A DNA stretch of 38,460 nucleotides. It comes from Planctomicrobium piriforme (GTDB lineage: Bacteria; Planctomycetota; Planctomycetia; Planctomycetales; Planctomycetaceae). Position 1 is the first letter of the stretch; every line of letters begins with the position of its first letter. Under the pieces are notes generated by a model. It saw only the letters and a list, made by a program, of their open reading frames with translations, ran no database searches and was not told the DNA's origin. The stretch covers positions 1-38,460 of the forward strand of contig CAMATH010000080.1 in the NCBI GenBank assembly GCA_945860955.1, given 5' to 3'. The position numbers and the translations under genes were made by a program. This document shows, piece by piece, positions 1 through 25,248 of this stretch.

Positions 1-776
1 GTGAAACTCGAATAGGGAACTCCCAGCACCAGAGCGGGGTTCTCGACCATGTCCAGATTGACGAACTGATTGGTTCCATCTCCGCCAGCGAACCTGGTTT
101 GATCGAATGCGCCGATGTAGGACTCTTTGCCCGCATAGACGACGAACCGCTCTGACAGTGGCAGCGTCCAGAGGACGTTGGTCAGAAACGGAATTCCAGG
201 ATCGTTTGGGGCCGGGGGGAGCAGGGCCGCCGTCACGGGGGGAGCAATCGCCCCGGTGTGCAGCGACACATTTCCGTAGTCGCCGTACCAGTTCTCCAGC
301 GTGATGCGCAGGGTTCCCAGGCTCAGGCCGGACAGTTTCTCAAAGTCCAAGACCGACTGATACATGCCCACGCCCGAGTACCGAAACGTATCGCCTGGCC
401 CCAATGGCTCTGGCAGCGGCGCGTTGATGCCGCCGGCGACTCCAAAGGCAAACTGGGCTTCTCGAATGCGAAACGAGACTCCCGAGTCCCGCAGCGACGT
501 GCGGTGTCCCCCCCATTCGCCGCTGAGAGTTGCGCGCTGCCAGAGATCATCGGTCGAGTCTAAGTCTGGGGGAGCGACCTGTGGTGACTCTGGCCAGAAG
601 GCTGTTTCAGCGGCGAACACATCCGTGTCGGCAGGAGGCGCCGGCGTTTCCTGTGCGACCGACCCCCGCCAGGACGTGGCCATTAAGGCCAGAAGCAGAA
701 GCAGGGGGGGCGTCGACTCGACTGGAATGCGATCTCGGTACTGGCCGATTTGTCGCAAGTGACTGCCGTGTCGCAT
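1..776 (-). CDS. OprB-type carbohydrate-selective porin, N-terminal part (runs off left edge)
   Basis: Read on the minus strand from an ATG at 776, an open frame of 258 codons continues past base 1, so the C-terminus is missing. Residues about 21-42 form a hydrophobic signal peptide (TPPLLLLLALMATSW) ending near Ser-Val-Ala-Gln. Residues 84-92 read LSGEWGGHR, the N-terminal signature of OprB porins (compare LxGDWGGxR). Later stretches also fit the family: a Tyr/Gly-rich strand (WYGDYGNVSLHTGAIAP), LSERFVVYAGK, and FVNLDMVENPAL near the left edge. OprB proteins are outer-membrane beta-barrel channels for sugars and other small solutes, which implies a diderm envelope. No partner gene is visible, since the next genes are on the other strand. 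Family assignment is secure; the substrate cannot be told. Confidence 0.82.
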   Translation of the reverse strand, partial: MRHGSHLRQIGQYRDRIPVESTPPLLLLLALMATSWRGSVAQETPAPPADTDVFAAETAFWPESPQVAPPDLDSTDDLWQRATLSGEWGGHRTSLRDSGVSFRIREAQFAFGVAGGINAPLPEPLGPGDTFRYSGVGMYQSVLDFEKLSGLSLGTLRITLENWYGDYGNVSLHTGAIAPPVTAALLPPAPNDPGIPFLTNVLWTLPLSERFVVYAGKESYIGAFDQTRFAGGDGTNQFVNLDMVENPALVLGVPYSSF

Positions 777-4619: not shown

Positions 4620-5336
4620 ATGCGCAAGTTACTGGATCTGTCCCTCGCGTTCTAAGTGGTTCTGGGATTGTCGCTGGCGGCAAGCCCCGCCGTCGCCGAC
4701 GCGCCGTTGGCGGAGAAGTATCTACTCGACGGCAAGTTGACTGAGGGCGCGAACTCCTTGGAAGGCTGCCTCAAGGATTCGCCGAAAGACGATCAGGCCA
4801 TGCTTGGACTCGGTGTGTTCCAGTTTCTGCAGACCTTCGAGCATTTGGGGGGGGACTCTCCAAGTATGGCCTCCGGACCGACAAGGCGTTCCTTCAGCCG
4901 CCGCCACAGGTCAAGGAGTTTCTCCCGCAGAACCCAAATCCCGAGAAGCTGACCTACCCGGCTGTACGCCAGTTGGTCCAGACTTTCGTCGACGACTTGG
5001 CCCGGGCCGAAACGACGCTGGCATCGGTCAAAGATCCCGCAGTCAAGCTGCGGCTGCACATCGGGCTCATCAAGATCGATCTCTTCGGTTAGGGCAAGCC
5101 GATCAGTGCGGCTTTCCTGTTCGAGCGAATCGAGGGGCTTCCCTATAGGAGCGACCAGGCCAAGCGGCTCGTGGTCGACTTCGACCGCGGCGACGTGAGC
5201 TGGCTCCGCGGCTACTGTCACTTCCTGGCTGCGCTGGGAGAGCTGTGCCTGTCAGTGGACGGGCAGAAAGCCTTCGATTGCAGCGCCCATCTGCTGTTCG
5301 AGAAGGTGGAGACGCCACACACCTTCCTGCTGAAGT
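4620..5336 (+). pseudogene. Broken gene for a secreted protein, interrupted by a transposase element
   Basis: The original start is ATG 4620, six bases after the preceding gene. The frame encodes a signal peptide that is stopped by TAA at 4653-4655; one base change from TTA would restore it. It continues as GLSLAASPAVADAPLAEKYLLDGKLTE and a TPR-like alpha-helical stretch. The frame is then lost in a run of eight G at 4847-4854, where one more G restores it (reading LSKYGLRTDKAFLQ). A further in-frame TAG lies at 5090-5092. The last recognisable part is WLRGYCHFLAALGEL ... HLLFEKVETPHTFLLKY, where RAYT copy 2 begins; no continuation is seen on the far side. Three point lesions plus an insertion make this a clear pseudogene. 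The family looks like a conserved planctomycete secreted protein of unknown function. Confidence 0.8.
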
Positions 5337-5987
5337 ACACAAAAGGGGGACAAAGCGAGTTTCAAAACTTCTGCGGTCTTCCTGGCGGTCGCAAACAGGA
5401 TTCCAGACCCAAAGCCTGGGCGGTAGGACGCGTCCAGTCGTCGTTGCCGAACGGGCGACCACGCAGCACCGAATGACGCAATCGCTGCAAGTCGCCGCTC
5501 GAGAGCGGTTCGTTGACACGCTCCCACCACGCCGCATCACGCGGCGCCGGCGTGCCACGCCAGAGCCGCGGGTCATCAGCGGACAACCAGCCGGGCAGGC
5601 TCGACCATTTCCAATGCTCGGCTCGAGCCACCCAATCGGCACGCACGGGATTGCGCTCGACGTACCGTAGCACGGTGGCCAGGTGCTCGTCGTCCTGCTA
5701 CGGAAACGCCTTGAATCTTCCCTGCCTTCCGTGCCCGGTTGTGCCGTATTGACGATGTTCTCGTCGCGCCGAAGAGATAGGCCGAAACCAGACGCTGGGC
5801 GTCGTTCATCGCCGCCACAAAGGCGTCGAAGTCCGCCGGCTTGTGGAACACCGTCTCGCGGCGGTTCCCGCGATTCAAAGCGTGATAGATCATGCCGCCA
5901 ACAGCGGCTCAAGCGGTCCGTGGCATCCTCGCATGGTGGCCCCCGCGAGTCTCCGAGTGAATAACGCGCTATGTCCCCTTTTTTGCC
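5337..5987 (-). mobile_element. RAYT-like element, copy 2 (both ends present, internally deleted)
   Basis: Both termini are preserved: ACACAAAAGGGGGACAAAGCG at the lower end and, on the other strand, GGGCAAAAAAGGGGACATAG at the upper end (5968-5987). The transposase would start at ATG 5926 (MPRTA-type start mutated to MPRTAA-like, then MIYHALNRGNRRETVFHKP) and stop at 5362. The span is 565 bases, 95 fewer than the restored full-length copy (660), so it is out of frame. The lost part lies between the Asp-Ala-Gln-Arg region and Tyr-Gly-Thr-Thr-Gly-His. It contains the YCLMPNHFHL HxH catalytic motif, so the copy cannot make active transposase but keeps the ends needed to be moved by another copy. 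Confidence 0.85.
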
Positions 5988-6172
5988 CCCGCTGCGCCCC
6001 AATCGCGCCCGGAGGGCGTGAACGCGTACGAATCCTCCGCATAGACTGCGGTCAGACCGCGAATGCGCAGGCAAGTTGCCAGAGATGAGCTATGTTTGTC
6101 GTGTGGAAAAATTGCGGGCACCGCACTGCCCATGGTTTCTCGCACGCTTCAAACCGGATCCGCTTGACACGA

Positions 6173-6940: not shown

Positions 6941-7708
6941 CCGCCGGCGCGATGCGCTGCCTGCCCAGCGAACGCCGCTGCAAACCGGCCGGGGAGTGGA
7001 ATCGCTACAAAGTACTGTGCCGGGATGGGGTGACTTCCCCCGGGCAAGCTCACTCCCGACCAGATCGCGCAAGAAGACCAGGGATTCCGTTCGCTGTACA
7101 ACGGCATCGACCTGGCGGGCTGGAAAAGAGCCGACGGTCACGCCGACCACTGGCAGCCGACCGACTGGCGGCTGACCTACGACGGCAAGAGCGAGGCCCA
7201 GGATAAGGACCTGTGGAGCGAAGCGGAGCTCGGCGATTTTCACCTGATCTGCGACTGGCGGTTGACCGCCAAACCGGAACGCACTTTGCGGCCGGTGATT
7301 CGGCCCAGCGGCGACAACGCCCTGAACGCCGACGGGACGGCGAAGGAAGTCGAGGTGTCCGACGCGGGCGACAGCGGCATCTACCTGCGCGGCAGCAACA
7401 AGAGCCAGGTCAACATCTGGTGCTGGCCGCTCGGTTCGGGCGAGGTGTACGGCTATCGCACAGACAAGACTCAGCCCGCCGATGTGCGCGCCGGGGTGAC
7501 TCCGAAGGTTCGGGCCGACAAACCGATCGGCGAATGGAACCGTTTCGAGATCACGATGCGTGGCGACCGGTTGACGGTGGTGTTGAATGGTCAGCAGGTG
7601 CTTGAAGACGCCCGGTTGCCGGGCGTCCCCGCGCGCGGCCCGATCGCGCCGCAGCACCACTGCGACGCGATTGAGTTCGCCAACGTGTACGTGAAGGAGC
7701 TGAAATAG
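6941..7708 (+). pseudogene. DUF1080 (3-keto-disaccharide hydrolase-type) protein, broken
   Basis: The frame reading GKLTPDQIAQEDQGFRSLYN from 7043 to 7708 is one DUF1080 (PF06439) beta-sandwich domain. It shows LYNGIDLAGWK, DGKSEAQDKDLWSE, a DSGIYLRGSNKSQVNIW core, a GEWNRFEITMRGDRLTVVLN strand and a final IEFANVYVKELK. There is no start codon: the frame is closed by a TGA at 7031-7033. Just upstream, in another frame (about 6980-7030), KPAGEWNRYKVLCRDG matches the C-terminal part of a second DUF1080 domain. The original was therefore a two-domain protein that has lost most of domain 1 plus the linker, and is frameshifted. DUF1080 proteins are secreted, glycan-acting and abundant in planctomycetes. 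Confidence 0.75.
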
Positions 7709-7771
7709 CCGGGGTCGCGAACAGGCGACCACGACGGATTCCAGCACGACAGAAGACGATCATTCGTGTGC

Positions 7772-8014
7772 ACACAAAAGGCTCGACCATTTCCAATGCT
7801 CGGCTCGAGCCACCAATTCGGCACGCACGGGATTGCGCTCGACGTACCGGAGGGGTCAGGTGATCGTCGTCCTGCAACGGAAGCGATTTGAATCTTCCCA
7901 GCCACACGTGCCCGGTCGTGCCGTAACAAAGATGACATCGTCGCGCCGAAGAGATCGACCGAAACCCGACGCTGGGCGTCGATCATCACCGCCACAAAGG
8001 CGTCGAAGTCCGCC
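7772..8014 (-). mobile_element. RAYT-like element, remnant 3 (deleted at both sides and internally)
   Basis: A short remnant begins with the terminal bases ACACAAAAG at 7772-7780. It jumps directly to GCTCGACCATTTCC, a loss of some 240 bases compared with copy 2, and continues to the region encoding FDAFVAVMIDAQRR. The sequence stops resembling the others near 8014. It carries the same internal junction as copy 2 (TCGTCGCG joined to CCGAAGAGAT), so both descend from one deleted element. Confidence 0.75.
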
Positions 8015-8150
8015 TGGTTCCCAATGCCGGGAATGCGTGCTGCGCTTCGATTTTCCTGTCGCATTTCGCGTTGTCTTGCGTAGAGAATATAAGAGTGGAC
8101 TGTCGTGTCGACGATTCGCATGGTGTCCACAATCGTCAGGAGGTTGCGTC

Positions 8151-8576
8151 TTGAAGACGACGAGCAAGAAAACTTTGAAGTCACCGCGCTGGCTGGCGCT
8201 GGTGGCTTTTTCTTTGCTCCACTTGAACATCGCCCCCTGTTGCTGTCAGACGACGACGGCGTACGCGGGGGCGTCTGCGTGTTGCGCCACTTCGACACAC
8301 TCTGCTTCGCACGGATTGGACAAACAGGGATGTCTGCCTCGACTGTGTCATCATTGTCGTTGTCCGAGTGGTTCGTTCGAAGCGATTGGGGCGAAGTCTG
8401 CAACGGTCTCCAAGTTTTTTGGGGCCGATTCGCGGTTTCTTCCCGATCTCAACCTGGAGCCGTTGTCACCGGTTGAAGAGTCTTCGAGGCTAGTGCGAAC
8501 GACCGTTCGATTCTTTCCGCCTGACTGCCATTCCGGGGCCGAGCGCTGCATCAGGTTGTGCCGCTTCAATTGTTGA
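8151..8576 (+). CDS. Secreted Cys-rich 'PCCC' protein 1
   Basis: I place the start at TTG 8151 because CAGGAGG lies eight bases upstream; the frame is open further up but that part is transposase remnant. The 141-residue product begins with a basic segment (KTTSKKTLKSPR), then a hydrophobic stretch WLALVAFSLLHLNIA followed at once by PCCC. It holds many further Cys and His residues (SACCATSTHSASH, CLPRLCHHCRCP) and ends in CIRLCRFNC. The layout of hydrophobic segment, PCCC and Cys terminus is shared with the gene at 9499, suggesting two related secreted or membrane-tethered metal-binding proteins. The family is not one I can name. Position upstream of an RND metal pump supports a role in metal handling, as inference. 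Confidence 0.55.
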   Translation: MKTTSKKTLKSPRWLALVAFSLLHLNIAPCCCQTTTAYAGASACCATSTHSASHGLDKQGCLPRLCHHCRCPSGSFEAIGAKSATVSKFFGADSRFLPDLNLEPLSPVEESSRLVRTTVRFFPPDCHSGAERCIRLCRFNC

Positions 8577-8790
8577 CCACCCCCAGTCGGTCCCTTTTTG
8601 GTTGACCGGCTGATCGACGGGCAAGTTGGTGGTTTTTTAAGCGAATCCCCAGGTGGTCGCACGAAGGCACTGCCACATCGTGAGTCCGCGTACAGGTTCG
8701 GGAGGAGACTCCACGCACCCGGGGACTCGTCGGTCAAGCCGACGATGCACTCTCTTTTTAACACTCACTCTGGAGACACTCATAAATTCC

Positions 8791-9333
8791 ATGTTCCGTT
8801 TGGCTACGTTCTCGCTGTTGATCTGTGTCGCGACCGTCACGGTGTTCGCCCAGGATGCACCGTATCTCGATGAGACGAGGAAGTTCCGCGGCGACTATGG
8901 CCACGGCAACAGCGCCCGAACTTACCAGCAGCACGCGCAGGATTACTCGCGGCAGCTCTATTACCAGGCGCAGGTGCAGCCGACATCGCCGAAGGCGGTG
9001 CTGGTGGAACACGCCACCGCCGTGCAGACGAACATCGAGAAGTCGAACAAGTCGCTCGCAGCCCTGAAGGCGGCTCACAAGGACGACGCGGCAGCGCAGA
9101 AACTGATCGCCTCGATTGAGGAACACCACGCCAAAGTCCTGAAGAACTGCGGCCACCTTCACGACTGCTGCAAGAACGACGCTGGTGTGGAAATGATCGG
9201 CGACTGCTGTGCCGACATCGACGCCGATATTGAAGCGGCGAAGGCCGACCTGACAAAGCTGCTGAAGCATCTCAAGATCGACGCGCTTCCCGCGCCCAAG
9301 AAGGTCGAAAAGAAGGCTGAAAAGAAGAAGTAA
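8791..9333 (+). CDS. Secreted His/Cys-containing helical protein, probable metal-locus protein
   Basis: 180 residues from ATG 8791. A signal peptide (MFRLATFSLLICVATVTVFA, cleaved near Gln-Asp) is followed by a Tyr/His/Gln-rich segment (YGHGNSARTYQQHAQDYSR). Then come predicted helices with spaced His (VEHATAVQTNIEK, IEEHHAKVLKNCGHLHDCC, GDCCADIDADIEAAKADLTK) and a Lys-rich C-terminus. The two CC pairs and the HLH/HH motifs could bind metal. I know no function for this family, although similar secreted proteins occur near metal pumps in planctomycetes. GGAG at 8772 is far from the start, so translation may be weak or the leader structured. Confidence 0.65.
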   Translation: MFRLATFSLLICVATVTVFAQDAPYLDETRKFRGDYGHGNSARTYQQHAQDYSRQLYYQAQVQPTSPKAVLVEHATAVQTNIEKSNKSLAALKAAHKDDAAAQKLIASIEEHHAKVLKNCGHLHDCCKNDAGVEMIGDCCADIDADIEAAKADLTKLLKHLKIDALPAPKKVEKKAEKKK

Positions 9334-9360
9334 TTCCAGCAGCGGTTTGAGTCCACCGTT

Positions 9361-9396
9361 CACCTGCCGTCGATTCGCTGATCCTGACGGCAGGTG
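9361..9396 (+). terminator. Hairpin after the His/Cys-rich gene
   Basis: CACCTGCCGTC at 9361-9371 and GACGGCAGGTG at 9386-9396 form a perfect 11-base stem with a 14-base loop, 27 bases after the stop codon at 9333. No T-run follows, so this is a possible terminator or mRNA 3'-end stabiliser. Confidence 0.5.
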
Positions 9397-9498
9397 GAAG
9401 TTGGTGATGACAGATTTTCGAGTTGCCGGTACGATCAGGCCGATGTGCGCACCCCCCAGGACGACTGCATTGAGTCGTTCAACTGACGAAGTACAGCC

Positions 9499-9972
9499 AT
9501 GTTTCGCGTGACCCTCGCCGCCTATCTGTTGATGGTGTCCTTCACGGGGCCGACCCCGTGTTGCTGCACCGCGGCGCGTTCGGTGGCGATGGTTTTGTCG
9601 TGGACAAGTCTGGTGGCGTCATCTGGCGATCAAGACGTGGCACCCCGATCTTGCTGTCGTCGCCAGCTCCGAGGGAGTTCGGCGGCTGAATCGGATGGGC
9701 CTGGAAAGGCTCCACAACCGTCGCCCGCCGGCGATCCGGTGCGTCGCTGCCTGTGCGAGACCAGCCTGTGCGATGCCGTCCGCAATTCCGTTCCAACGCT
9801 GTTGGTCGAAGGATGGCATCCCGCTCCCGATTGCTTGACGCTTGCCTTCGCGGAAAGTGTGTTCTCGAAAGCCCGGCAATCGACGACGGCAGCCGTCAAT
9901 AGCGGCGGAGTGATATTTGCGGCGCGATCGGGTCGCGAAATTCGCATTGCATTTCGCTCTTGGTGCTGTTGA
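9499..9972 (+). CDS. Secreted Cys-rich 'PCCC' protein 2
   Basis: 157 residues from ATG 9499. The N-terminus MFRVTLAAYLLMVSFTGPTP runs directly into CCC, the same arrangement as the protein at 8151. Further Cys lie in SCCRRQ and RRCLCETSLCDA, and the chain ends SWCC. The middle is polar and low in structure. The hydrophobic N-terminus suggests export, and the Cys content suggests metal or disulfide chemistry. No known domain is recognised. It lies between the helical His/Cys protein and the TRASH-type lipoprotein, all on the same strand. The ribosome-binding site is weak (GACGAAGTACAGCC before ATG). Confidence 0.5.
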   Translation: MFRVTLAAYLLMVSFTGPTPCCCTAARSVAMVLSWTSLVASSGDQDVAPRSCCRRQLRGSSAAESDGPGKAPQPSPAGDPVRRCLCETSLCDAVRNSVPTLLVEGWHPAPDCLTLAFAESVFSKARQSTTAAVNSGGVIFAARSGREIRIAFRSWCC

Positions 9973-10234
9973 TCTCTACATTGCCCAGAGTTCTGTCCGC
10001 CGGGTCGTTTCGACAGGCTGACTGAAATCGGGTGATTCTCATCGATTCAACCCAGCCGCGACCATCATTTGGGTCACGACGTTCTCGTATCGATCGCCAC
10101 AATGGCCTGTTCACGCAAGGTGCGCGCTGGACCTGCGATTGACGCTGAAGGTCATCTCGCACGCCCAAGTCTCTGACGGCTTCGGCAGTGCTTCTCAATG
10201 ACCGCGCCCTTGGGGTGCGGGAAAGGACTGGATC
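9973..10234 (+). other. Intergenic stretch before the lipoprotein-pump genes
   Basis: 262 bases without a supportable gene. It is the natural place for a promoter of the 10235-17245 gene group, but I see no convincing -35/-10 pair. An ECF-type promoter cannot be excluded, given the sigma-factor gene at 18963. Confidence 0.4.
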
Positions 10235-11122
10235 ATGTCCATTGCAAGACGTTTGGTTACGGGCATTCTGCTGCTGTGCGGCACCGCGTTCGTCTCAGGT
10301 TGTATGGAACGGAGTTCCACCGTTCCGTCAGCTCCTGGTGCGACGGCGGGTTCCAGCGACTCTTCGAATCCATCCGACAGTTCCGCAACGGCGAAGTCGG
10401 CTGCGGGATCCACCGCGACCGAGCACGGCCATCAGTCGGGGGATCATGGCGGCATCATGATTTCGCTCGGCCGTGACAGTTACCATGTCGAGGCGGTGTT
10501 TGAGAAAGGGGGCGTCCTGCGGCTGTACACTCTGGGCCAGGATGAATCCCGCGTGATCGACGTCGAACGTCAATCGCTCAAAGGGTTCGTGAAGGTCGAG
10601 GGAGGCGCCGAAGCTCAGCCGTTCATGCTGGAGTCCGAGCCTCAACCTGGGGACGCCGACGGCCGAACGTCCCAGTTCGCCGGACCGCTTCCCAAGGGAT
10701 TGTGGGGGCTCAATCTGGAGGTCACCGTCCCCAATATTGTGATTTCTGGCGAACGGTTTCGACTCGGCTTCAAGTCCACCGCGGAACAGCACGACGCTGG
10801 CATGCCGAACGCGGTCGCCGAGGATGAGGAGCAGCAACTGTTCCTGACACCCGGTGGACTCTACACGGCTAAAGACATCGAGCTCAATGGGAAGACCACC
10901 GCCTCTCTGAAATTCAAAGGCTTGCGGTCCTCGCACGACATGTCTCCCCAGCCGGGCGACAAGATCTGTCCCATCACGCGGACGAAGGCGAATCCGCAGT
11001 TCACCTGGGTTGTCGACGGAAAGTCCTACGAGTTCTGCTGTCCGCCGTGCGTCGAGGAATTCGTCAAAGTCGCGAAGACAGCGCCCGACGAAATCAAGCC
11101 CCCGTCAACCTACGTCAAGTAA
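10235..11122 (+). CDS. Lipoprotein with C-terminal Cys-pair (YHS/TRASH-like) domain
   Basis: 295 residues from ATG 10235, with AAAGGA nine bases upstream. The signal peptide ends in the lipobox FVSGC, so Cys23 is the likely lipidated residue. A Ser/Ala/Thr-rich linker is followed by a His-rich patch (EHGHQSGDHGG, about 67-77) and a beta-rich middle domain (about 80-190). The C-terminus holds GDKICPITRTKANPQFTWVV followed by YEFCCPPCVEEFVK. This arrangement of Cys before and CCPPC after a short beta-hairpin is that of YHS/TRASH metal-binding modules. These modules are linked to copper and other heavy metals. Next to the adaptor and pump genes, it is probably a periplasmic metal sensor or chaperone, which is inference. 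Confidence 0.7.
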   Translation: MSIARRLVTGILLLCGTAFVSGCMERSSTVPSAPGATAGSSDSSNPSDSSATAKSAAGSTATEHGHQSGDHGGIMISLGRDSYHVEAVFEKGGVLRLYTLGQDESRVIDVERQSLKGFVKVEGGAEAQPFMLESEPQPGDADGRTSQFAGPLPKGLWGLNLEVTVPNIVISGERFRLGFKSTAEQHDAGMPNAVAEDEEQQLFLTPGGLYTAKDIELNGKTTASLKFKGLRSSHDMSPQPGDKICPITRTKANPQFTWVVDGKSYEFCCPPCVEEFVKVAKTAPDEIKPPSTYVK

Positions 11123-11158
11123 CACGAAACCAATCGCTTCCTCTTCGAGGGATTCACG

Positions 11159-11536
11159 ATGAAGTCGGCTTTTCAGATCGTCGCTGGTGTCGCGTTGTTC
11201 GCGTTGTTTCAAGCCGGGTGTTCGGACTCGCCCAAGGAGGCCCCTTCTACAAAGCCCCCCAGTACCTCGCAGGTCGACAACGATGCGGCCGAGCGAGAGG
11301 CGGCGTTTGCGAAGCTCAGTTCGGAAGACCGCAATCTGGCCGAGGAGCAAGGTTTTTGCGCAGTCACCAGCGAACCGCTCGGCTCGATGGGGCCGCCGCT
11401 GAAACTTCTGGTCAACGACACCGCAGTATTCGTCTGTTGCAAGGGTTGCGAGAAGAAAGCGCTTGCAAATCCGGACAAGACGCTTGCCAAAGTCGCGGAA
11501 CTGCAGACGAAGGTGAAATCGAATCGTGGCCACTGA
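11159..11536 (+). CDS. Small lipoprotein with Cys-pair (TRASH-like) motif
   Basis: 125 residues from ATG 11159, 36 bases after the previous gene, with GAGG upstream. The signal peptide ends in the lipobox FQAGC (lipidated Cys about residue 20). A Ser/Pro linker precedes a domain with GFCAVTSEPLGSMGPPLKLL and VFVCCKGCEKKALANPDKTL. The pattern Cys ... PLGSMG ... CCKGC resembles the TRASH-like module of the preceding gene and is a likely metal site. It lies between that gene and the RND adaptor, all in one direction and probably one operon. Its separate function is unknown. Confidence 0.7.
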   Translation: MKSAFQIVAGVALFALFQAGCSDSPKEAPSTKPPSTSQVDNDAAEREAAFAKLSSEDRNLAEEQGFCAVTSEPLGSMGPPLKLLVNDTAVFVCCKGCEKKALANPDKTLAKVAELQTKVKSNRGH

Positions 11537-11584
11537 TCATGACGACGGTCGTCCTTTCGGATTCCAATTGCTGGAGGTCGCACC

Positions 11585-13819
11585 ATGACGTTTCGGCAAA
11601 TTCGCGGCAATCGACCGTGGGCGGTCGGCGCGTGCCTGCTTGCTGCTGCTCTGGTTTCAACCTACTCGTTCGGTCACGAAGGTCATCAGCCCCTGCCAAC
11701 CAAGGGGGTCGAGGTCGATCTTCGGGCCGGTCGGCTCACGCTGAGCCGTGCGGCCCGCGACGTACTCGACGTGAGGACGCAGCAAGTCCAGACACGCGAC
11801 GTGGCCGGCGCCATTCGAGCTTATGCCACAGTCGTCGCCCCCTGGACAGGACGAAGTTACGTGACTTCGCGGCTGCCTGGACGGATTGTGAACTTGCTGG
11901 CGCGGCCGGGAGATCTGGTCGAAGCGGGCCAGGTTCTTGCAGAGATTGACAGTCTTGATCTGCATACCCTGCGACAGGATTACCAAAAGGCGCAGAACGA
12001 ACTCGCTCTGTCCGCCAAGATTCTAGAACTGCTCTTGGCCGCCACGAAGGAAGGATCAACCTCCGGCCAAAAGCTCATTGAAGCAGAAAACTCCCACCGT
12101 CAAAGCCAGAATGCCCTGGATGTGCTGCGGGCGAAGGGGGTCGGACTGGGTGTGCCGGAAGCGGAGCTCATTGCTTCGGCCGAAGGGAACGCAGCGCCGT
12201 TACGATTGCAGTTGAAAAGTCAGATCCGGGGAGTCGTCGTACACGCCGATGTCGCGGTGGGCAAATTCGTTGAACCGACTGAGCACCTGTTCGAGGTCGT
12301 CGACACATCCCGGGTGTGGGTAAAAATCGGCGTTCTCGAACAAGATCTCAATCGCGTTGAAAAAGGCCAGGTGGTGCATGTCTCGTTTCAGGGGCTTCCC
12401 CAGAAGCGATTGACAACCAAGGTCGACGTGTTGGGCCTGTTGCTCGATCCCCAAACGCATCAGGGAACGGCGTGGGCGGAACTCGAAAACAACAAGTCCG
12501 TCCCGCATTTGTTGCCGGGAATGAATGGACAGGCGGAGTTGATTCTCCCCGGCTCGTCGGCTCGTCCGTGCGTACCGACCAAGTCCATTTTCAGCGACGG
12601 TGCCGAGCGTTACGTCTTCGTCGAAGAGACCTTAACGAAAGCTGGCTCCGAATACCGCAAGCAGTCGATCGCCATCGGCCGACAAACTCGCGATTTGGCC
12701 GAAATTGTCTCGGGTGACGTGTTCCCCGGAGACCGCGTGGTGACGCGCGGCGGACATGAACTGGCGAGCCTGTTTTTCCTGGGCGTTTTGCGGGTGGGCC
12801 CTGAAACCGCGAAGAGCATTGGTTTGAAAGTGGAAGCAGCCGAATTTCGCCGCGTCGAGCGGATTCTTCGATTCGACGGCTCGCTCGACATCCCTCCCCA
12901 ACTTCGGACCTCGGCGTCCTCGCAGTTATCGGGAACGTTGCGAGAGATTCGAGTGGATCGAAGTCAGTCGGTCAAGGCGGGGGACGTGCTGGCGGAAGTC
13001 GCCAGTCTGGAACTGCAAGATATTCAGTTGGAATTGCTCGAAACTCACCTGGACGGCGTGTTATGGCGCGACACCGACGCTCGACTTCGTAATGCGGGAA
13101 ACGCCGTGCCGCGCCGAACCCTGCTGGAAATGGACAGCCGTGTGAAGGTGCTGGAAACGAAATTCGACAACATTCGCCAGAAGCTGTTGACACTGGGGTT
13201 GTCGGCGTCGCAGATCGACGACGTGGTGAAGAACAAGCGGCTCGTTGATTCACTGCCGATTCGCGCACCCATGGATGGCGCGATCGCGCAGTTCGACCGG
13301 GTGCTGGGCCAGGTCGTGCGGGCTGACGAACCGCTGTTTGAGATCCATGATCTGTCGCAGGTGTGGGTTCAGGCGTTTATTGGAGAACGGGATTCGAGCC
13401 GCGTGCATGTGGGGCAATCGGCGCGGATTCGACTGGTGGCACATCCCGGTTATGAAGCGATGGGGACTGTCTCCCGCATCGGACCGGTCGTCGATGTCGA
13501 CAGCCGGACCCAGATCGCATGGATCGAGTTCACAAAGCCCGAGTCGCTCGCGATTCAGCACAACATGCTGGCCAGTGTCACGCTGACGACAGAGCGCCTG
13601 GCCGCCAGTCTGGCAGTTCCGCAGAGCGCCGTCATCCGCGACGGACTGCGAAACTTCGTGTTCGTCCAGAAGTCCGACGGCGTATTTGAACGGCGCAAAG
13701 TAGAACTCGGACGGGCCGATGACCGCTTTCAGGAGATCAAAACCGGTCTGTCGGTTGGCGAAATGGTCGCCACAGAAGGTGTTCCCCAGATCCAGACCGC
13801 CTATTCCGCAGTGCGGTGA
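11585..13819 (+). CDS. RND efflux periplasmic adaptor, double-length (two adaptor modules)
   Basis: 744 residues, about twice the usual 350-450 of CusB/CzcB-type adaptors. Start ATG 11585 has GGAGG ten bases upstream. A signal peptide (residues 1-30) is followed by HEGH (31-34), a possible metal ligand. Module 1 (about 35-400) has a lipoyl-like half (RLPGRIVNLLARPGDLVEAG), a helical hairpin (QDYQKAQNELALSAKILELL), a second lipoyl half (QIRGVVVHADVAVGKFV), VDTSRVWVKIGVLEQDLNRV, and a beta-barrel ending in GMNGQAEL. Module 2 (about 410-744) repeats this order: LSGTLREIRVDRSQSVKAGD, a hairpin (LETHLDGVLWRD ... KLLTLGLSASQID), IRAPMDGAIAQ, VHVGQSARIRL, then a C-terminal barrel. It sits 12 bases before the pump gene. 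It should link the inner-membrane pump to an outer-membrane channel. Confidence 0.85.
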   Translation: MTFRQIRGNRPWAVGACLLAAALVSTYSFGHEGHQPLPTKGVEVDLRAGRLTLSRAARDVLDVRTQQVQTRDVAGAIRAYATVVAPWTGRSYVTSRLPGRIVNLLARPGDLVEAGQVLAEIDSLDLHTLRQDYQKAQNELALSAKILELLLAATKEGSTSGQKLIEAENSHRQSQNALDVLRAKGVGLGVPEAELIASAEGNAAPLRLQLKSQIRGVVVHADVAVGKFVEPTEHLFEVVDTSRVWVKIGVLEQDLNRVEKGQVVHVSFQGLPQKRLTTKVDVLGLLLDPQTHQGTAWAELENNKSVPHLLPGMNGQAELILPGSSARPCVPTKSIFSDGAERYVFVEETLTKAGSEYRKQSIAIGRQTRDLAEIVSGDVFPGDRVVTRGGHELASLFFLGVLRVGPETAKSIGLKVEAAEFRRVERILRFDGSLDIPPQLRTSASSQLSGTLREIRVDRSQSVKAGDVLAEVASLELQDIQLELLETHLDGVLWRDTDARLRNAGNAVPRRTLLEMDSRVKVLETKFDNIRQKLLTLGLSASQIDDVVKNKRLVDSLPIRAPMDGAIAQFDRVLGQVVRADEPLFEIHDLSQVWVQAFIGERDSSRVHVGQSARIRLVAHPGYEAMGTVSRIGPVVDVDSRTQIAWIEFTKPESLAIQHNMLASVTLTTERLAASLAVPQSAVIRDGLRNFVFVQKSDGVFERRKVELGRADDRFQEIKTGLSVGEMVATEGVPQIQTAYSAVR

Positions 13820-13831: not shown

Positions 13832-16800
13832 ATGCTCAATACCATTATCGCGTTCTCGTTGAAAAACCGGGGTCTCGTCGTCATTGCGGCGATCATCGTC
13901 GTGGTGTTCGGCTCGCTGCGGCTTCGCGAGATGCCGGTCGACGTCTTTCCCGATTTGAACCGTCCCACGGTCACCATCATGACCGAGGCGGCCGGACTCG
14001 CGCCAGAGGAAGTCGAGGTTCTGGTGACTCGTCCCATTGAGTTTCTGCTCAATGGGGCGACCGGCGTGCAACGGGTCCGTTCGTCGTCGGGAATCGGTCT
14101 GTCGATCGTGTGGGTCGAATTCGACTGGGGAACCGACGTTTTTCGTGACCGGCAAATCGTCTCGGAAAAACTGCAACTCGCCCGCGAGCGATTACCCAGG
14201 GACGCCAACCCGGTCATGGCCCCGATCTCTTCGATCATGGGCGAAATCCTGTTGCTGGGATTGCGATCGACGGCCCAGGTCAAAACCCGGGAAGCCCAAG
14301 AATCCCAGGCGATGGAGCTGCGCACTCTCGGTGAGTTCACGTTGCGGAACCGCCTGCTGGCGATCGGCGGGGTGTCGCAGGTCACCGTGATGGGGGGAGT
14401 TCTCAAGCAGTACCAGATCATCACGTCGCCGGCCCGTTTGGCGGCGCAAAACGTCACCATGAAACAATTGACCGAAGCGGCTCAGAAAGCGAACGTGATC
14501 GCCGGCGGCGGAATCATGGTTCGTTCGCCGAAAGAATCGCTGCTGCGAATCAGTGGACAAAGCCTGACGCTTGAAGAGATCGAAAATACGCCAGTCTTGT
14601 GGCGCGACCCCGTTTCAGTCCGCATCCGGGACGTTGCCGACGTGCGATTCGGCGGACCGGTCGCGCGAGGCAACGGCAGCGCCTGGGTGAAGCTCGCATC
14701 CGACGATGGTTCCGCGTCCGAAGACGCCGACCAAGATGAACTCGAATCGAATTCGGATCGTGGATCGGCGACGGCGGCGGAACGGGCTGCCGGTGAGCAT
14801 TCGGCGACAAAAATCAGCGGCGGATCGGCGGTCATATTAACGGTTCAGAAGCAGCCGAATGCCGACACCCTGATTCTCGATCGCAAGATCGACGAAGTTC
14901 TCGACTCGATTCAAAAGGATCTGCCCCCCGATGTGGTCATCGAGCGCCGAATCTTCAAGCAGGCGGACTTCATCAAGGGCGCGGTCGACAACGTGACGGA
15001 AGCGGTCGGCGACGGCGCGATCTGGGTGGTGGTCGTGCTATTCCTGCTCATGGGCAATTTTCGAACCAGCATCAGCTCGCTGACGTCGATGCCGCTGTCG
15101 ATTCTGCTCACGGTACTCGTGTTTCATGCGCTCGGAATCACGATCAACACCATGACTCTGGGAGGCATCGCCGTGGCGATCGGCGACCTGGTCGACGACT
15201 CGATCGTCGACATCGAGAACATCTACCGCCGGCTGAAGGAGAACCGCCAACTGCCGGTCGAACAGCAGCGACCGGCGCTCGCAGTCATCTACGACGCGTC
15301 GTGCGAGGTGCGAAACTCGATCGTCTACGCGACGCTGATTGTCATTCTGGTCATGTTTCCGTTGTTCTCCATGGCGGGCCTGGAAGGGCGCATGTTCGCT
15401 CCTCTGGGAGTGGCGTATATCATCTCGCTGCTCTGTTCGCTGGTGGTCTCGCTGACGCTGACTCCGGTTCTGGGATCATTTTTGTTGTCACGGGCATCGT
15501 TTCTTGCCGATGCCGGCGATCCATTGCTGCTGCGCTGGCTGAAGCGCGCCGACGCCGCCGTGCTGCGGCTCACTCTGAGAAACGCGAAACTGGTGCTGGC
15601 GATGGTCGCCGTCCTGGTGACAGTTTCGTGCGCGTCGATCTTTTGGATGGGGGGCGAATTCCTGCCGCCGTTCAATGAAGGGACGCTGACGATCAACCTG
15701 AGACTGGAACCCGGTACCAGCCTGGACGAGAGCCGCCGTTTGGCCGAGCGGGCGCAACGATTGATTCTCGACGTCCCTGAAGTGGTGGCTGTGTCGCGTC
15801 GAACCGGACGGGCGGAACTCGATGAACATGCCGAAGGGGTCAATTCATCAGAAATCGACGTGCGACTGGCCGAACACTTGGTTTCGAAGCCCGGTTGGGT
15901 TTGGGCCGTGGTCCGGAGGATTCCCATCGCCCACCTCTGGAGCTTCGAATCTATCGGACGTCCGCGGGAGGAGGTGATAGTCGACGTTCGCGATCGCATC
16001 GCGAACATCCCTGGAGCCGCCGTGAACATCGGCCAGCCCATTTCGCATCGGCTCGATCACATGATGTCCGGCATTCGCGCCCAGATCGCGGTCAAGGTGT
16101 TTGGCCAGGATCTGCGGGAGCTCCGCACGGCCGCCTACGATATTCAGGATCGCATGCAGTCGATTCCCGGAGTCGTCGATCTGCAGATCGAGCCGCAGGT
16201 GGAAGTCTCTCAAGTGCGGCTGATGGTCAAACGCGACGAGGCGGCGCGGTACGGGTTGGCCCCGGGTGATGTCGCCGACCTGCTGGAGACCGCCTACAAA
16301 GGGCGGGTCGTGTCGCAGGTGCTCGACGAAGACCGCTATTTCAGCCTCGTCGTCTGGTACGACGAAGAATCGCGCAGCGATCCGGCTGTCATCAATGAGA
16401 CGATTCTCGAGACTCCTTCAGGTCGACGCGTTCCCCTGGGACAAGTCGCCGAAGTGCTCGACACGACCGGCCCGAATACGCTGAATCGCGAGCATGTCGA
16501 ACGTCGGATCGTCGTTTTCTGCAACGTCCAGGGGAGAGATTTGGCGAGCGTCGTTGCCGACATTCGGCGGTCGCTCTCTCCCGTCGAAAACAACCTGCGG
16601 GCACTCGACGGCAGTTACCACATCGAATTCAGCGGCCAGTTCGAGGCGCAGCAAGACGCCAACCGGCGTCTGGCGATTCTTGGTTCGCTCAGCATCTTGG
16701 GCGTGTTCCTGCTGCTTTGCAAGGCACTCGAATCATGGACGGCCGCCTTACAGGTCCTGGTCAATATTCCGCTGGCGGCGTTTGGTTCGGTGCTGACGCT

Positions 16801-17245
16801 GCTGATCGTCAATCACCCCAGCGCTGAGTCGCTGGCCGCCGCACCCTGGTGGGATTGGCCGCGAATCTGGGTGGGAGCCACGAGTCTGTCGGTGGCCCAC
16901 TGGGTTGGGTTCATCACTCTGATCGGCGTCGTCAGCCGCAACGGCATTATGATGATCTCGCATTACATGCATTTAATGCAGCACGAAGGCGAGACGTTTT
17001 CCGAACAGATGATCATCCGGGGCAGTCTTGAACGGCTCGCTCCCGTGATGATGACCGCCATGACGAGCTTCATCGGGTTGCTGCCGTTGTTGTTCGGATC
17101 GGGCCAGACCGGGAAAGAGATCCTCTACCCGCTGGCGCTGGTCGTGTTCGGCGGGATGTTGACCTCGACGGTTCTCGACCAGGTCGTCACGCCGGCGCTG
17201 TTTCTGACTTTTGGCGGCCGGAGACACAAAAGCGGGACATCGTGA
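13832..17245 (+). CDS. HME-type RND efflux pump (CusA/CzcA family)
   Basis: 1137 residues. N-terminal transmembrane helix (LNTIIAFSLKNRGLVVIAAI) with RLREMPVDVFPDLNRPTVTI, the usual start of HME pumps. The first membrane block holds VGDGAIWVVVVLFLLMGNFR and GGIAVAIGDLVDDSIVDIEN, whose acidic residues are the proton-relay signature. EFLPPFNEGTLTINLRLEPG opens the second periplasmic domain, and the C-terminal block ends in FIGLLPLLFGSGQTGKEILY and VVFGGMLTSTVLDQVVTPAL. The family exports mono- or divalent heavy metals. The ion cannot be told: the methionine triad of CusA is not obvious. An acidic Ser/Glu-rich stretch (about residues 288-330) is extra to the first porter domain. The last residues (RRHKSGTS) and stop codon come from an inserted transposase element. 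Confidence 0.9.
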   Translation: MLNTIIAFSLKNRGLVVIAAIIVVVFGSLRLREMPVDVFPDLNRPTVTIMTEAAGLAPEEVEVLVTRPIEFLLNGATGVQRVRSSSGIGLSIVWVEFDWGTDVFRDRQIVSEKLQLARERLPRDANPVMAPISSIMGEILLLGLRSTAQVKTREAQESQAMELRTLGEFTLRNRLLAIGGVSQVTVMGGVLKQYQIITSPARLAAQNVTMKQLTEAAQKANVIAGGGIMVRSPKESLLRISGQSLTLEEIENTPVLWRDPVSVRIRDVADVRFGGPVARGNGSAWVKLASDDGSASEDADQDELESNSDRGSATAAERAAGEHSATKISGGSAVILTVQKQPNADTLILDRKIDEVLDSIQKDLPPDVVIERRIFKQADFIKGAVDNVTEAVGDGAIWVVVVLFLLMGNFRTSISSLTSMPLSILLTVLVFHALGITINTMTLGGIAVAIGDLVDDSIVDIENIYRRLKENRQLPVEQQRPALAVIYDASCEVRNSIVYATLIVILVMFPLFSMAGLEGRMFAPLGVAYIISLLCSLVVSLTLTPVLGSFLLSRASFLADAGDPLLLRWLKRADAAVLRLTLRNAKLVLAMVAVLVTVSCASIFWMGGEFLPPFNEGTLTINLRLEPGTSLDESRRLAERAQRLILDVPEVVAVSRRTGRAELDEHAEGVNSSEIDVRLAEHLVSKPGWVWAVVRRIPIAHLWSFESIGRPREEVIVDVRDRIANIPGAAVNIGQPISHRLDHMMSGIRAQIAVKVFGQDLRELRTAAYDIQDRMQSIPGVVDLQIEPQVEVSQVRLMVKRDEAARYGLAPGDVADLLETAYKGRVVSQVLDEDRYFSLVVWYDEESRSDPAVINETILETPSGRRVPLGQVAEVLDTTGPNTLNREHVERRIVVFCNVQGRDLASVVADIRRSLSPVENNLRALDGSYHIEFSGQFEAQQDANRRLAILGSLSILGVFLLLCKALESWTAALQVLVNIPLAAFGSVLTLLIVNHPSAESLAAAPWWDWPRIWVGATSLSVAHWVGFITLIGVVSRNGIMMISHYMHLMQHEGETFSEQMIIRGSLERLAPVMMTAMTSFIGLLPLLFGSGQTGKEILYPLALVVFGGMLTSTVLDQVVTPALFLTFGGRRHKSGTS

Positions 17246-18002
17246 GTTTCAAGGCTTCTGCGGTCTTCCTGGCGGTCGCAAACAGGATTCCAGGCCCAAA
17301 GCCTGGGCGGTAGGGCGCGTCCAGGAGTCGTTGCCGAACGGCCGACCACGCAGCACCGAATGCCGCAATCGCTGCAAGTCGCCGCTTGAAAGCGGCTCGA
17401 CAGCGGCTCGTTGACACTCTCCCACCACGCTGCATCACGCGGCGTCGGCGTGTCACGCCAGAGCAGCCAGTCATCAGCGGACAACCAGCCGGGCAGGCTT
17501 GACCATTTCCAATGCTCGGCTCGAGCAACCGATTCGGCACGCACGGGATTGCGCTCGACGTACCGCAGCACGGCGGCCAGGTGATCGTCGTCCCGCAACG
17601 GAAACGCCTTGAATCCTCCCTGCCACACGTGCCCAGTCGTACCGTAATGACGATGATCTCGTCGCGTATGGGCTGTCAGGAGCCACTGCATCCAACGCCC
17701 CAGGTCCCCATCACCGTGCGGCCTGAGCGCGAGATGGAAATGGTTCGGCATCAGGCAATATTCGGGATCAGGAAATAACCGAAGAGATCGACCGGAACTC
17801 GACGCTGGGAGTCGTTCATCGCCGCCACAATGGCGTCGAAGTCTGCCGGCTTGTGGAACACCGTCTCGCGGCTGTTCCCGCGATTCAAAGCGTGATAGAT
17901 CATGCCGCCAACAGCAGCTCGAGCAGTCCGTGGCATTCTTGCAGGGTTAGACGACACGACTCTCCAAGTCAAGAACGCGCTATGTCTCCCCTTTTTTTGC
18001 CC
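17224..18002 (-). mobile_element. RAYT-like element, copy 4 (full length with two frameshifting duplications)
   Basis: The most complete copy. Lower end ACACAAAAGCGGGACATCG; upper end, other strand, GGCAAAAAAAGGGGAGACAT, a clear imperfect inverted repeat. The transposase runs from ATG 17936 (MPRTARAAVGGMIYHALNRG) to TGA 17249. It contains MPNHFHLALRP (HxH catalytic motif), HYGTTGHVWQG (candidate Tyr), RYVERNPVRA, and a COG1943-type C-terminus. It carries a 17-base tandem duplication (17744-17760 and 17761-17777) and an 11-base tandem duplication (17391-17401 and 17402-17412). Each shifts the frame. The span of 688 bases less 28 is 660, that is 219 codons plus stop. Inserted at the 3' end of the pump gene. 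Confidence 0.85.
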
Positions 18003-22679: not shown

Positions 22680-22751
22680 GCTAGCGTAGCTCAACGGTAG
22701 AGCTCCGGTTTTGTAAACCGGAGGTTGTGGGTTCGATTCCCACCGCTAGCT
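22680..22751 (+). tRNA. tRNA-Thr (TGT)
   Basis: 72 bases fold into a full cloverleaf: acceptor GCTAGCG/CGCTAGC with discriminator T, D arm GCTC/GAGC, anticodon arm CCGGT-TTTGTAA-ACCGG with anticodon TGT, and T arm GTGGG-TTCGATT-CCCAC. CCA is not encoded. It is the first gene of the tRNA cluster. Confidence 0.97.
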
Positions 22752-22833
22752 CACGGACGCGGTGACTGCCGGGTGGTTTGGAAAATCGACCGAATTTCGA
22801 ATCACGAACGTCCACTACAGAGTGAAAAAAGTC

Positions 22834-22915
<82 letters not shown>

Positions 22916-23040
22916 GTTTTTCGGTCTGGTTTTGTCGATCTGGTGTTGCCCGTTCCAGTGTTGCCGGTGCGGTAATGGTCGGACGGGGGGGATTCCCAGG
23001 GGAACCCCAGGATGAGAGTGTGGAAACCGCGAAAAGAAAC

Positions 23041-23111
23041 GCGGGCGTAGCTCAATGGTAGAGCCCCAGCCTTCCAAGCTGGCCGTGAGGGTTCGATTCC
23101 CTTCGCCCGCT
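23041..23111 (+). tRNA. tRNA-Gly (TCC)
   Basis: 71 bases. Acceptor GCGGGCG/CGCCCGC with discriminator T, D arm GCTC/GAGC, anticodon arm CCAGC-CTTCCAA-GCTGG with anticodon TCC, and T arm AGGG-TTCGATT-CCCT. CCA is not encoded. Confidence 0.97.
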
Positions 23112-23327
23112 CTGCGGCGGATTGGTTGTCCGCCAGGTGCGAGTTGTTGACGAGCATTTCCAAAAAAGCGTGCTGTCGGTCCCGAAATGGCTGGCAAGCG
23201 CGGAGGGGACTTGTTATCTTGTGGGGCTTCCCGCGGGATTGCCGGTCCGTAACGAGTCGAATCTGCGGCCCGTCGGACCTGTAACGAGTCGGAACAAGTG
23301 AGCGGCCTGCTGAGTTTTGAGCAGACT

Positions 23328-23400
<73 letters not shown>

Positions 23401-23663
23401 TCGTTGTGGCGTGTCGACGATGCGGAAAGAGTGTTTTCGGCGCGTCTGCGGTGAGAGTGTTGTGGGAAAGTCTGTCGGGATCCGATCGATGGCGAGAGCC
23501 GGGAGAGGATTTTGGCGCAGAGCTGACCCGAAAGTGGCCATGGTAATCCCCGGGTGACCGTGGTTTCCGCCGGGTGAGCGGAGAAGACAAATTCATTCCT
23601 GATTGCACGCTGATCCCCCCGGGTGCGTGACACAAGATTTTTGATTGAACTGAGGGAGTCGCG

Positions 23664-23666
23664 ATG
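23664..23666 (+). promoter_or_regulatory. Start codon and ribosome-binding site of tuf
   Basis: GAGGGAG lies six bases before ATG 23664, a strong site fitting a highly expressed gene. The 263 bases between the last tRNA and tuf contain no other gene; they probably hold the tRNA processing sites and possibly a tuf promoter, which I could not identify. Confidence 0.6.
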
Positions 23667-24863
23667 GCGAAGGAAAACTTCAAACGAACCAAGCCGCACG
23701 TCAACGTGGGGACGATTGGCCACATTGACCACGGCAAGACGACATTGACCGCGGCGCTGGTGGCAACCCAGGCGGCGACCGGACTGGCGACGGCGAAGAG
23801 CTATGCCGACATCGCCAAGGGTGGTACCGTCCGCGACGAAACTAAGACGGTCACGATCGCGGTCAGCCATGTGGAATACGAGTCCGACAAGCGGCACTAT
23901 GCCCACATCGATTGCCCCGGGCATGCTGACTATATTAAGAACATGATCACCGGTGCCGCCCAGATGGACGGGGCGATCCTGGTGGTGTCGGCCGCTGACG
24001 GCCCGATGCCCCAGACCCGTGAACACATCCTGCTGGCCAAGCAGGTCGACGTTCCCGCTCTGGTGGTCTTCCTGAACAAGTGCGACCTGGTTGACGACGA
24101 AGAGTTGTTGGAACTGGTCGAGATGGAAGTTCGTGAGCTGCTAACCAAGTACGGCTTCCCCGGCGAGACGATTCCCATCGTTCGCGGCAATGCGAAGGCG
24201 GCGCTCGAAGGCAAGGGGGCTGACCCCAAGGCCGCCGAGTGCATCAAGAATCTGCTCAAGGCTCTCGACGACCATATCCCCGATCCCATCCGATTGGTTG
24301 ACAAGCCGTTCGTGATGGCGGTGGAAGACGTGTTCTCGATCAAGGGTCGTGGAACGGTCGCGACCGGCCGAATCGAGCAGGGAATCGTCAAGGTTGGTGA
24401 AAAGCTCGAAATCGTCGGGCTGAAGCCGACCCGCGACACGGTTTGCACCGGTGTCGAAATGTTCCAGAAGACCCTCGACGAGGGTCAGGCTGGCGACAAC
24501 GTCGGTCTGCTGTTGCGTGGTGTGGAACGTGACGACATTGAACGCGGTCAGGTTCTCTGTAAGCCGGGCGCGATCAACCCCCACACGAAGTTCCTGGGCG
24601 AGGTGTACGTCCTGAGCAAAGAGGAAGGTGGTCGGCACACGCCGTTCTTCAGCGGCTACCGGCCCCAGTTCTACTTCCGGACCACCGACGTGACCGGAAC
24701 GACCGCCCTGCAGGGTGGTGCCGAAATGTGCATGCCTGGCGACAACGTCTCGTTGGAAGTCGAGCTGCAGAGCCCGATCGCCATGCACGAAGGCAGCCGT
24801 TTCGCGATTCGCGAAGGTGGCAAGACGGTCGGTTCGGGGATCGTTACCAAGATTGTTCAGTAG
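23664..24863 (+). CDS. tuf: Translation elongation factor Tu
   Basis: 399 residues, close to the usual 393-400. It delivers aminoacyl-tRNA to the ribosome as a GTP complex. G1 GHIDHGKT (19-26), switch-2 region [21 protein letters not shown]4 NKCD, then domains 2 and 3 with [38 protein letters not shown], and [16 protein letters not shown]. Where most EF-Tu proteins have a G5 SAL (SALKAL), this one reads [13 protein letters not shown], a change at the base-binding loop. The gene follows four tRNA genes, an arrangement also found in E. coli (thrU-tyrU-glyT-thrT-tufB). A hairpin terminator follows. Confidence 0.97.
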
Positions 24864-24922
24864 GCTGTTGGAAAGCGCGGAGGTCGCGCTGAGCCGAGAG
24901 TCTGTACCGGATTGAAGGTTCA

Positions 24923-24968
24923 CCACCTCCCGGCCCGTCAGAAGTGACGACCGGGAGGCTGGCTTTTT
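24923..24968 (+). terminator. Intrinsic terminator after tuf
   Basis: CCTCCCGG (24926-24933) pairs with CCGGGAGG (24951-24958); the stem extends with CCA and TGG outside a one-base bulge, and a run of five T follows. It lies 60 bases after the tuf stop and 16 bases before rpmG, so rpmG-secE-nusG may rely on read-through or another promoter. Confidence 0.75.
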
Positions 24969-24983
24969 GGTGAAGGTCGTGTT

Positions 24984-25174: not shown

Positions 25175-25248
<74 letters not shown>

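Follow-up and report, generated by a model that had tools for sequence, protein, structure and literature searches.

Two small cysteine-rich proteins encoded ahead of a heavy-metal efflux operon in Planctomicrobium piriforme, which we call PCCC1 and PCCC2, may form one planctomycete family of metal-sensing leader proteins that switch the genes behind them; this reading draws on analogy with known leaders, and we give it about an even chance. Both genes lie on the forward strand of the window (the whole stretch of DNA analysed, 38,460 nucleotides (nt) of contig CAMATH010000080.1, assembly GCA_945860955.1): PCCC1 at 8151–8576 (141 residues; TTG start, with AGGAGG at 8138–8143) and PCCC2 at 9499–9972 (157 residues). 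Between them, on the same strand, lies the gene for a middle protein, CCHH, and PCCC2 heads an operon, likewise on the forward strand, encoding two lipoproteins (LP1 and LP2), a periplasmic adaptor (membrane fusion protein, MFP) and a resistance-nodulation-division (RND) pump. An original prediction, made from the DNA alone, had described the products at 8151 and 9499 as sharing an export segment that runs into PCCC, scattered Cys and a Cys-containing C-terminus. The translations bear this out: the hydrophobic segment of PCCC1 leads straight into PCCC and its last residue is Cys, while in PCCC2 PCCC follows a hydrophobic segment and the C-terminus is CC. None of the three proteins could be placed in a named family, as had been stated: PCCC1 and PCCC2 have no Pfam or NCBIfam match at E ≤ 1, and the middle protein has sub-threshold matches only.

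As judged from sequence comparison, PCCC2 belongs to a real, undescribed and metal-linked planctomycete family of small, exported-looking, Cys-rich proteins. A search with the single sequence gave matches in nine of 58 relatives besides the window (the one in genome G006 weak and short), and a profile search found the family in 47 of 297 Planctomycetia genomes (the window's own among them); in a phylum-wide sample the profile matched two genomes out of 294, the window's own and G028, which is of the same taxonomic family. From 141 candidates (84 unnamed, 56 named and the window's) we removed two that failed N-terminal trimming, three shorter than 90 residues and 43 near-duplicates, leaving 93 non-redundant members. 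Their common plan is a hydrophobic N-terminus, CCC, a second Cys pair (CC, in some members CxxC), CxC and a conserved C-terminal 15-mer. In a first profile (A1, 11 sequences) Cys 21, 23, 52, 53, 84 and 157 are invariant and Cys 22 and 86 nearly so; among the 93 members the Cys are kept in 92, 83 and 92 (CCC), 93 and 93 (next pair), 89 and 93 (CxC) and 85 (last residue). Conservation of CCC in the 93-row set is partly by construction, since the trimming demands a hydrophobic stretch before a Cys; CCC is conserved too in the 11 rows of A1, which had no such trimming, and in those rows the putative export segment before CCC is hydrophobic. The N-terminal segment carries zero to two charged residues in all 93 trimmed rows, which were themselves trimmed on such a segment (two of the 141 candidates failing). 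Cys columns are the most conserved ones in both alignments. Searches of 51 members against Pfam and NCBIfam gave no family beyond single-member matches at E 0.006–0.1, a plasmid collection searched with one member gave no match, and no description of these proteins was found among open-licence PMC papers on planctomycetes.

The genes are real and metal-linked, as their genomic contexts indicate. Neighbourhoods were taken for 84 PCCC matches outside the window, and RND genes were counted only for the 64 whose sequence extends 7 kb or more downstream. On the same strand, an LP1 gene is found within 500 bp downstream in 51 of the 84, an LP2 gene in seven and either one in 57; an RND gene follows within 9.5 kb in 45 of the 64 members, and an RND or lipoprotein gene in 53. 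RND company is expected by chance for ∼1.4% (arithmetic from 385 RND match pieces, which overcount genes; the background is 15 chosen carrier genomes of ∼8.7 Mb each, with 25.7 pieces per genome on average when searched with the window's pump). Seen from the LP1 side, the best 80 of 138 loci (titled planctomycetes, apart from two titled just bacterium) contain a PCCC profile match in 51 cases, an MFP in 70, an RND pump in 68 and CCHH in 10, and PCCC lies within 500 bp before LP1 in 46 of the 80. The original prediction expected homologues beside heavy-metal RND pumps, which is what we see for PCCC2 and also for CCHH, where an RND or adaptor gene lies within 9.5 kb in 28 of 37 loci (a subset of the CCHH profile matches; 22 of the 25 where 7 kb is known on both sides). 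It had also named beforehand two outcomes that would speak against it, homologues consistently away from metal genes and Cys lost among orthologues; neither appeared.

The distance from CxC to the end of the protein is nearly fixed: 64–75 residues, with a median of 71 and a standard deviation of 2.5 (n = 93). The other long spacers vary more (standard deviation 4.0 for CCC to CC and 7.2 for CC to CxC), and the distance from the N-terminus to CCC (median 21, standard deviation 2.6) is fixed by the trimming rule. Counted without an alignment, CxC lies at least 40 residues from the end in 90 of 93 members (median 71, standard deviation 4.0, one outlier at 100). The members had been collected by profile, a procedure that may be biased towards similar lengths; the other two long spacers varied freely nonetheless. 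Among the 85 members ending in Cys, the last 15 residues hold 1.98 bits per position, versus 0.41 at positions 16–70 from the end. Arg-Cys stands right before the stop codon in 70 of the 93 members, and the C-terminal motif takes forms such as ...GRDLL.A...LRC-stop and ...SGRE.R.AL.SW.C-stop.

The RNA behind PCCC genes is also distinctive. The gap between PCCC and LP1 measures 143–300 nt (median 202; one of 77) in the 50 pairs with a recognisable Shine–Dalgarno sequence (SD); in the window it is 262 nt (9973–10234), and the gaps among the later genes are 36, 48 and 12 nt. Across 44 non-redundant loci the fold z-score averages −1.77 at stop+10..59 and −1.66 at start−60..−11 (best 50-nt segments), and between those places it is mostly around −0.4 (−0.38 at both stop+60 and stop+80). 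A hairpin thus placed stands just before the next SD at the family level, and the hiding of the SD is weak. Controls before starts gave −0.33 for LP1 without PCCC (n = 29), −0.73 for LP2 (n = 42), −0.24 for MFP (n = 74) and −0.05 for RND (n = 67); after stops the values are −0.36, −0.59, +0.38 and −0.16 for LP1, LP2, MFP and RND. After PCCC stops, genes before LP1 average −1.58 (n = 59) and other PCCC genes −0.79 (n = 43). The window's own gap has a z of −1.79 in its post-stop hairpin region (∼9983–10032) and −0.41 in its pre-SD hairpin region (∼10175–10224); beyond the post-stop hairpins, the RNA signals of the window are weak. An excess of C over G (the C > G bubble, a feature of Rho-type terminators that in CruR, a leader protein, runs from the gene end into the gap; the criterion was adopted in advance from the CruR paper) is found at PCCC stops, with C minus G at +10.5% (55 of 64 positive) and +10.1% (37 of 42 positive), against −2.8 to +1.2% at five other gene types. 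An Rfam scan of 7500–11600 gave nothing at E ≤ 1.

These observations (gene order, conserved Cys, fixed spacing and C-terminal motif, with positioned RNA structure and the C > G bubble at the family level) can be joined into a mechanism, for which we infer export, metal binding, stalling and regulation, its sign included. The nascent PCCC chain would leave by the Sec pathway; by the time the ribosome translates the conserved last 15 residues, CxC, ∼71 residues back, would stand at about the periplasmic mouth of the translocon, a position suggested by its fixed distance to the end of the chain. Metal binding at CxC, aided by CCC and CC, would then alter the speed of chain completion, and this speed would decide the fate of the C-rich mRNA gap of ∼200 nt with its post-stop and pre-SD hairpins. 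The fate of the gap would in turn set the output of LP1, LP2, adaptor and RND pump (for PCCC2) or of the four-helix protein CCHH (for PCCC1).

PCCC1 is probably a diverged member of the PCCC family. The original prediction called the two proteins otherwise dissimilar. This holds in that no sequence score proves their kinship; it does not hold for their layout, as both have the order CCC–CC–CxC–terminal Cys, and the distance between CxC and the end is 70 residues in PCCC1 and 71 in PCCC2. When the first 35 residues and the last Cys are held, both spacings of PCCC1 (CC and CxC) are reproduced by 191 of 20,000 shuffles. Its scores against the 93-row and 11-row profiles are not significant: out of 500 shuffles each, 19 and five scored as high with the full sequence shuffled, 25 and four with Cys held, and 89 and 55 with the first 35 residues held. 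hhalign gives a probability of 88.5, a figure that carries no shuffle control. No pairwise phmmer match at E ≤ 0.001 links PCCC1 to the PCCC proteins of loci L235 and L049. L235 (from G157) has the gene order of the window plus CopA: a PCCC protein (9204–9662) before CCHH, then CopA, a second PCCC, LP1, LP2, MFP and pump, with CxC 73 and 72 residues from the end in its two PCCC proteins. In L049 (10568–10954, from G004) a possible PCCC relative precedes CCHH, with CxC only 60 residues from the end. The gap between PCCC1 and CCHH is 214 nt; a hairpin with a 9-bp stem (one G-U pair; 8584–8612) begins 8 nt past the PCCC1 stop codon, with fold z-scores of −1.47, −2.66 and −0.82 at stop+0, +5 and +10. 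We place PCCC1 in the family because of the motif order and spacing, the layout of L235, and this long gap with its hairpin. A search with PCCC1 alone gave matches at E ≤ 0.01 in three of 59 genomes: its own and two others, whose matches (L005/L055 and L006/L056) are likely chance frames.

Several observations weigh against PCCC proteins being leaders. Out of the 64 members, 10 have neither a lipoprotein gene within 500 bp nor an RND gene within 9.5 kb on either side (one of these is the PCCC1-like gene of L235, whose operon pump begins just past the stretch analysed). A PP motif, looked for in the last 15 residues, is present in none of the 93 members. Structure extends beyond the two places described, with a mean z of −0.86 at start−110..−61, and CCHH genes give −0.83 upstream of their starts (n = 9) and −1.02 downstream of their stops (n = 10). 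An alternative pairing between the two hairpins (HP1:HP2), suggested by eye in L134, L114 and others, was ruled out by controls, since the true partners did not outdo swapped partners (22 of 43, p = 0.83) or shuffled partners (19 of 43, p = 0.72). No covariation or compensatory change was seen in the one hairpin alignment counted (four related loci), and the SD of the next gene is only slightly less open (0.29 versus 0.34–0.37, one-sided p = 0.043). For the window itself, pre-SD z-scores of −0.41 and −0.05 were obtained; its genes show no C > G bubble and its gaps a weak one. As to families resembling known leaders, DUF2946 (PF11162) matches none of 51 PCCC members at E ≤ 0.1; the CopL family (NF033807) matches one of the 51, at E 0.028 only, and exceeds its cut-off in none of 59 genomes, nor in any control genome; and HYC_CC_PP (NF047658) exceeds its cut-off in none of 15 genomes. 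A weakly folded C-terminal domain of fixed length could equally yield the fixed spacing.

This last point can be widened into a rival that we regard as decidedly unlikely: the fixed length would reflect an ordinary small folded C-terminal domain, and hairpins and C-richness would be by-products of base composition and of signals for transcription in the gap, be it a promoter, operator or terminator. The weak AlphaFold2 model for PCCC does place helices at 113–131 and 145–156, and the lack of compensatory change in the counted alignment and the structure elsewhere in the gap and around CCHH fit this explanation too; however, at the majority of other gene ends and starts with comparable GC content these signals are weak or absent. 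The original prediction itself spoke of a periplasmic metal-trapping set that feeds the RND pump. Spelled out, a mature PCCC protein, perhaps anchored through its hydrophobic segment, would use CCC, CC, CxC and its terminal Cys or His to bind a soft metal and, with the four-helix protein and the lipoproteins, hand it on to adaptor and pump. Eight strongly conserved Cys (each kept in 83–93 of 93 members), the plausible metal binders LP1 and LP2, and Csp1-like, metallothionein-like and CopA-like genes nearby in some loci all favour this; the metal-gene company and the conserved Cys of the proposal stand. But the sequence between the motifs is unconserved, the AlphaFold2 model is poor (predicted local distance difference test (pLDDT) 63.1, predicted TM-score (pTM) 0.31), and trapping does not account for the fixed stretch between CxC and the end, the conserved motif before the stop codon, the two hairpins or the C > G bubble. 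A passive trap is not the best reading, because the C-terminal 15 residues are, Cys motifs aside, the most conserved part of the protein, the CxC-to-end distance is fixed and the downstream RNA is structured, C-rich and leader-like; we consider it rather unlikely for PCCC, and trapping or delivery may apply above all to the four-helix protein and the two lipoproteins. Very improbable, in our view, is that PCCC modulates the pump as CzcI does in Cupriavidus, acting in the periplasm as a small protein that quenches the pump at low metal: the gene position is the same, and CzcI is reported to quench CzcCBA (in the part of PMC10127602 that we draw on), but the RNA features go unexplained and PCCC members occur without a nearby pump too.

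CCHH (8791–9333; 180 residues from the first in-frame ATG, at 8791, of an open reading frame spanning 8653–9333) had been described as a secreted helical protein with HH, HLH and two CC pairs, and it does look secreted, carries these motifs and is helical according to AlphaFold2: the model, from eight sequences, is a four-helix bundle with a mean pLDDT of 78.1 and a pTM of 0.69. Among PDB folds nothing matched at E ≤ 0.001, and the top-ranking ones were four-helix ligand-binding domains of receptors; profile matches are below threshold (RIO1 18.6 bits, Prion 15.7 bits, NCBIfam lasso_PqqD 11 bits). The family is found in 28 of 297 genomes of the class, its own included; Cys140 is nearly invariant, and conservation of HH and of the first CC pair is partial. 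Csp copper storage proteins have a four-helix-bundle fold; CCHH resembles them as a secreted-looking four-helix bundle with Cys, differs by having few Cys, and has no match to TIGR04401. A Csp1-like gene (TIGR04401, E 5e-12, below the cut-off) adjoins CCHH in L033.

LP1 (10235–11122) carries a YHS/TRASH-like metal-binding domain at its C-terminus (PF24273 20.3 bits and YHS 13.5 bits, both below cut-off) and is conserved in 10 relatives, with C245 and CCxxC invariant. LP2 (11159–11536) has a GSMG...CCxGC domain and matches no Pfam or NCBIfam family over its cut-off; its Cys and GxMG are invariant in 10 sequences. Domains of this type are found inside RND adaptors elsewhere (L045:7778–9829, L049:2390–4783, L052:4594–6660 and L053:6969–9146), and for this reason LP2 may represent such a metal-binding domain of adaptors in free-standing form. 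The window's adaptor (11585–13819) has two HlyD/CusB-like halves in tandem on one chain, and adaptors of 736–780 residues occupy the same place in the operons of relatives. The pump (13832–17245) looks like a heavy-metal RND pump of the CusA/CzcA kind by profile matches and by its best PDB relatives, CusA and ZneA; it scores 694.7 bits against TIGR00914, below the cut-off of 701.45. It lacks the Cu(I) triad of CusA (Met573, Met623 and Met672), having Asn, Ser and His opposite these residues (counted by eye on the alignment). Copper-type genes are among the neighbours in other genomes.

Secreted-looking metallothionein-like proteins (18–21 Cys in 106–113 residues) are encoded near CCHH or PCCC at L096:3740–4060 (no Pfam or NCBIfam match), L102:3132–3473, L223:10483–10803 and L226:10022–10345; in L223 and L226 there is no pump, and the metallothionein-like protein (20 Cys in 106–107 residues) lies behind PCCC. 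Another gene in L235 (4666–5124, minus strand) encodes a Cys-rich, weakly PCCC-like protein (E 7e-4) with a hydrophobic start and CxC 72 residues from the end, and precedes a divergent adaptor–RND pair. By eye, transposase-related stretches flank the metal operon on both sides: an IS200-like Y1 transposase (PF01797) at 17125–17751 on the minus strand and, by eye, degraded copies of transposase-like text around 5103–6074 and 7591–8403 (minus strand), neither of which has a Pfam match. The same contig carries core genes, with five tRNAs, EF-Tu, rpoB and rpoC at 22680–37075.

Small exported Cys-rich proteins encoded before metal genes have been described elsewhere. CopL, an exported regulator of this kind encoded before copper genes, resembles PCCC in size, Cys-richness and gene position; HYC_CC_PP proteins, from Bacteroidota, are likewise small with a hydrophobic stretch followed by Cys, and their genes lie near metal genes. 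The closest parallels are CruR and CutF (DUF2946), for which we draw on parts of the cited papers. CruR of Bordetella (145 residues) has an export signal, CXXC, a conserved 45-residue spacing (tested by adding and deleting residues) and RAPP near its end; a 162-bp gap with a C > G bubble separates it from the next gene, copper acts on the nascent chain, and its signal peptide is dispensable for the effect according to the authors (PMC9426467). For CutF, export is required and translation is controlled via a stem-loop (PMC9973294); the mature protein is reported to be undetectable in the envelope. The same source names CopL as a CutF-like node and says that CzcI lacks the proline motif (PMC9973294), and another notes that, for CruR and CutF themselves, arrest of translation still awaited demonstration (PMC10987492). 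CzcI and PCCC, compared by description rather than sequence, are both small periplasmic(-looking) proteins encoded before an RND metal pump. CruR and CutF share with PCCC a small exported(-looking) product, a place as first gene of a metal operon (for PCCC by gene order only: 57 of 84 members before LP1 or LP2, 45 of 64 with an RND gene downstream) and a conserved C-terminus that a Cys motif precedes by a fixed distance. CruR and PCCC further share the long gap and, for PCCC at the family level, the C > G bubble; the stem-loop of CutF, which hides the next SD, may have a counterpart in the predicted pre-SD hairpin behind PCCC. PCCC differs from both in having CxC rather than CXXC or CXXXC, 71 residues to the end, the extra CCC and CC, and an end that is mostly Arg-Cys, with no PP. 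In the 15 chosen carrier genomes there are three DUF2946 matches, none at the place of PCCC. On contig C1 of G230, a DUF2946 match near 1609087 exceeds the cut-off, and a PCCC gene of the same genome is ∼16 kb away. Because both a DUF2946 match and PP are absent, we say that PCCC would work like CruR and CutF, not that it is one of them.

Metal-responsive leader proteins in the cited papers, as far as our excerpts extend, are DUF2946/CutF-like and come mostly from Pseudomonadota and Bacteroidota (PMC9973294, PMC9426467). With somewhat less than an even chance, Planctomycetia evolved their own nascent-chain metal regulators independently of DUF2946, with a ∼71-residue ruler to an Arg-Cys-stop arrest motif, used repeatedly (twice in the window) and relying on a structured, Rho-prone gap to gate RND pumps as well as other metal genes. 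If so, an unnamed Planctomycetia family would gain a role and a new arrest-like sequence would be open to testing, its CxC-to-stop ruler by single-residue changes of the kind described for CruR; and a second sequence family with the same layout as CruR and CutF, but distinct in spacing and C-terminus, would suggest that export combined with nascent-chain metal binding has been adopted convergently as a switch.

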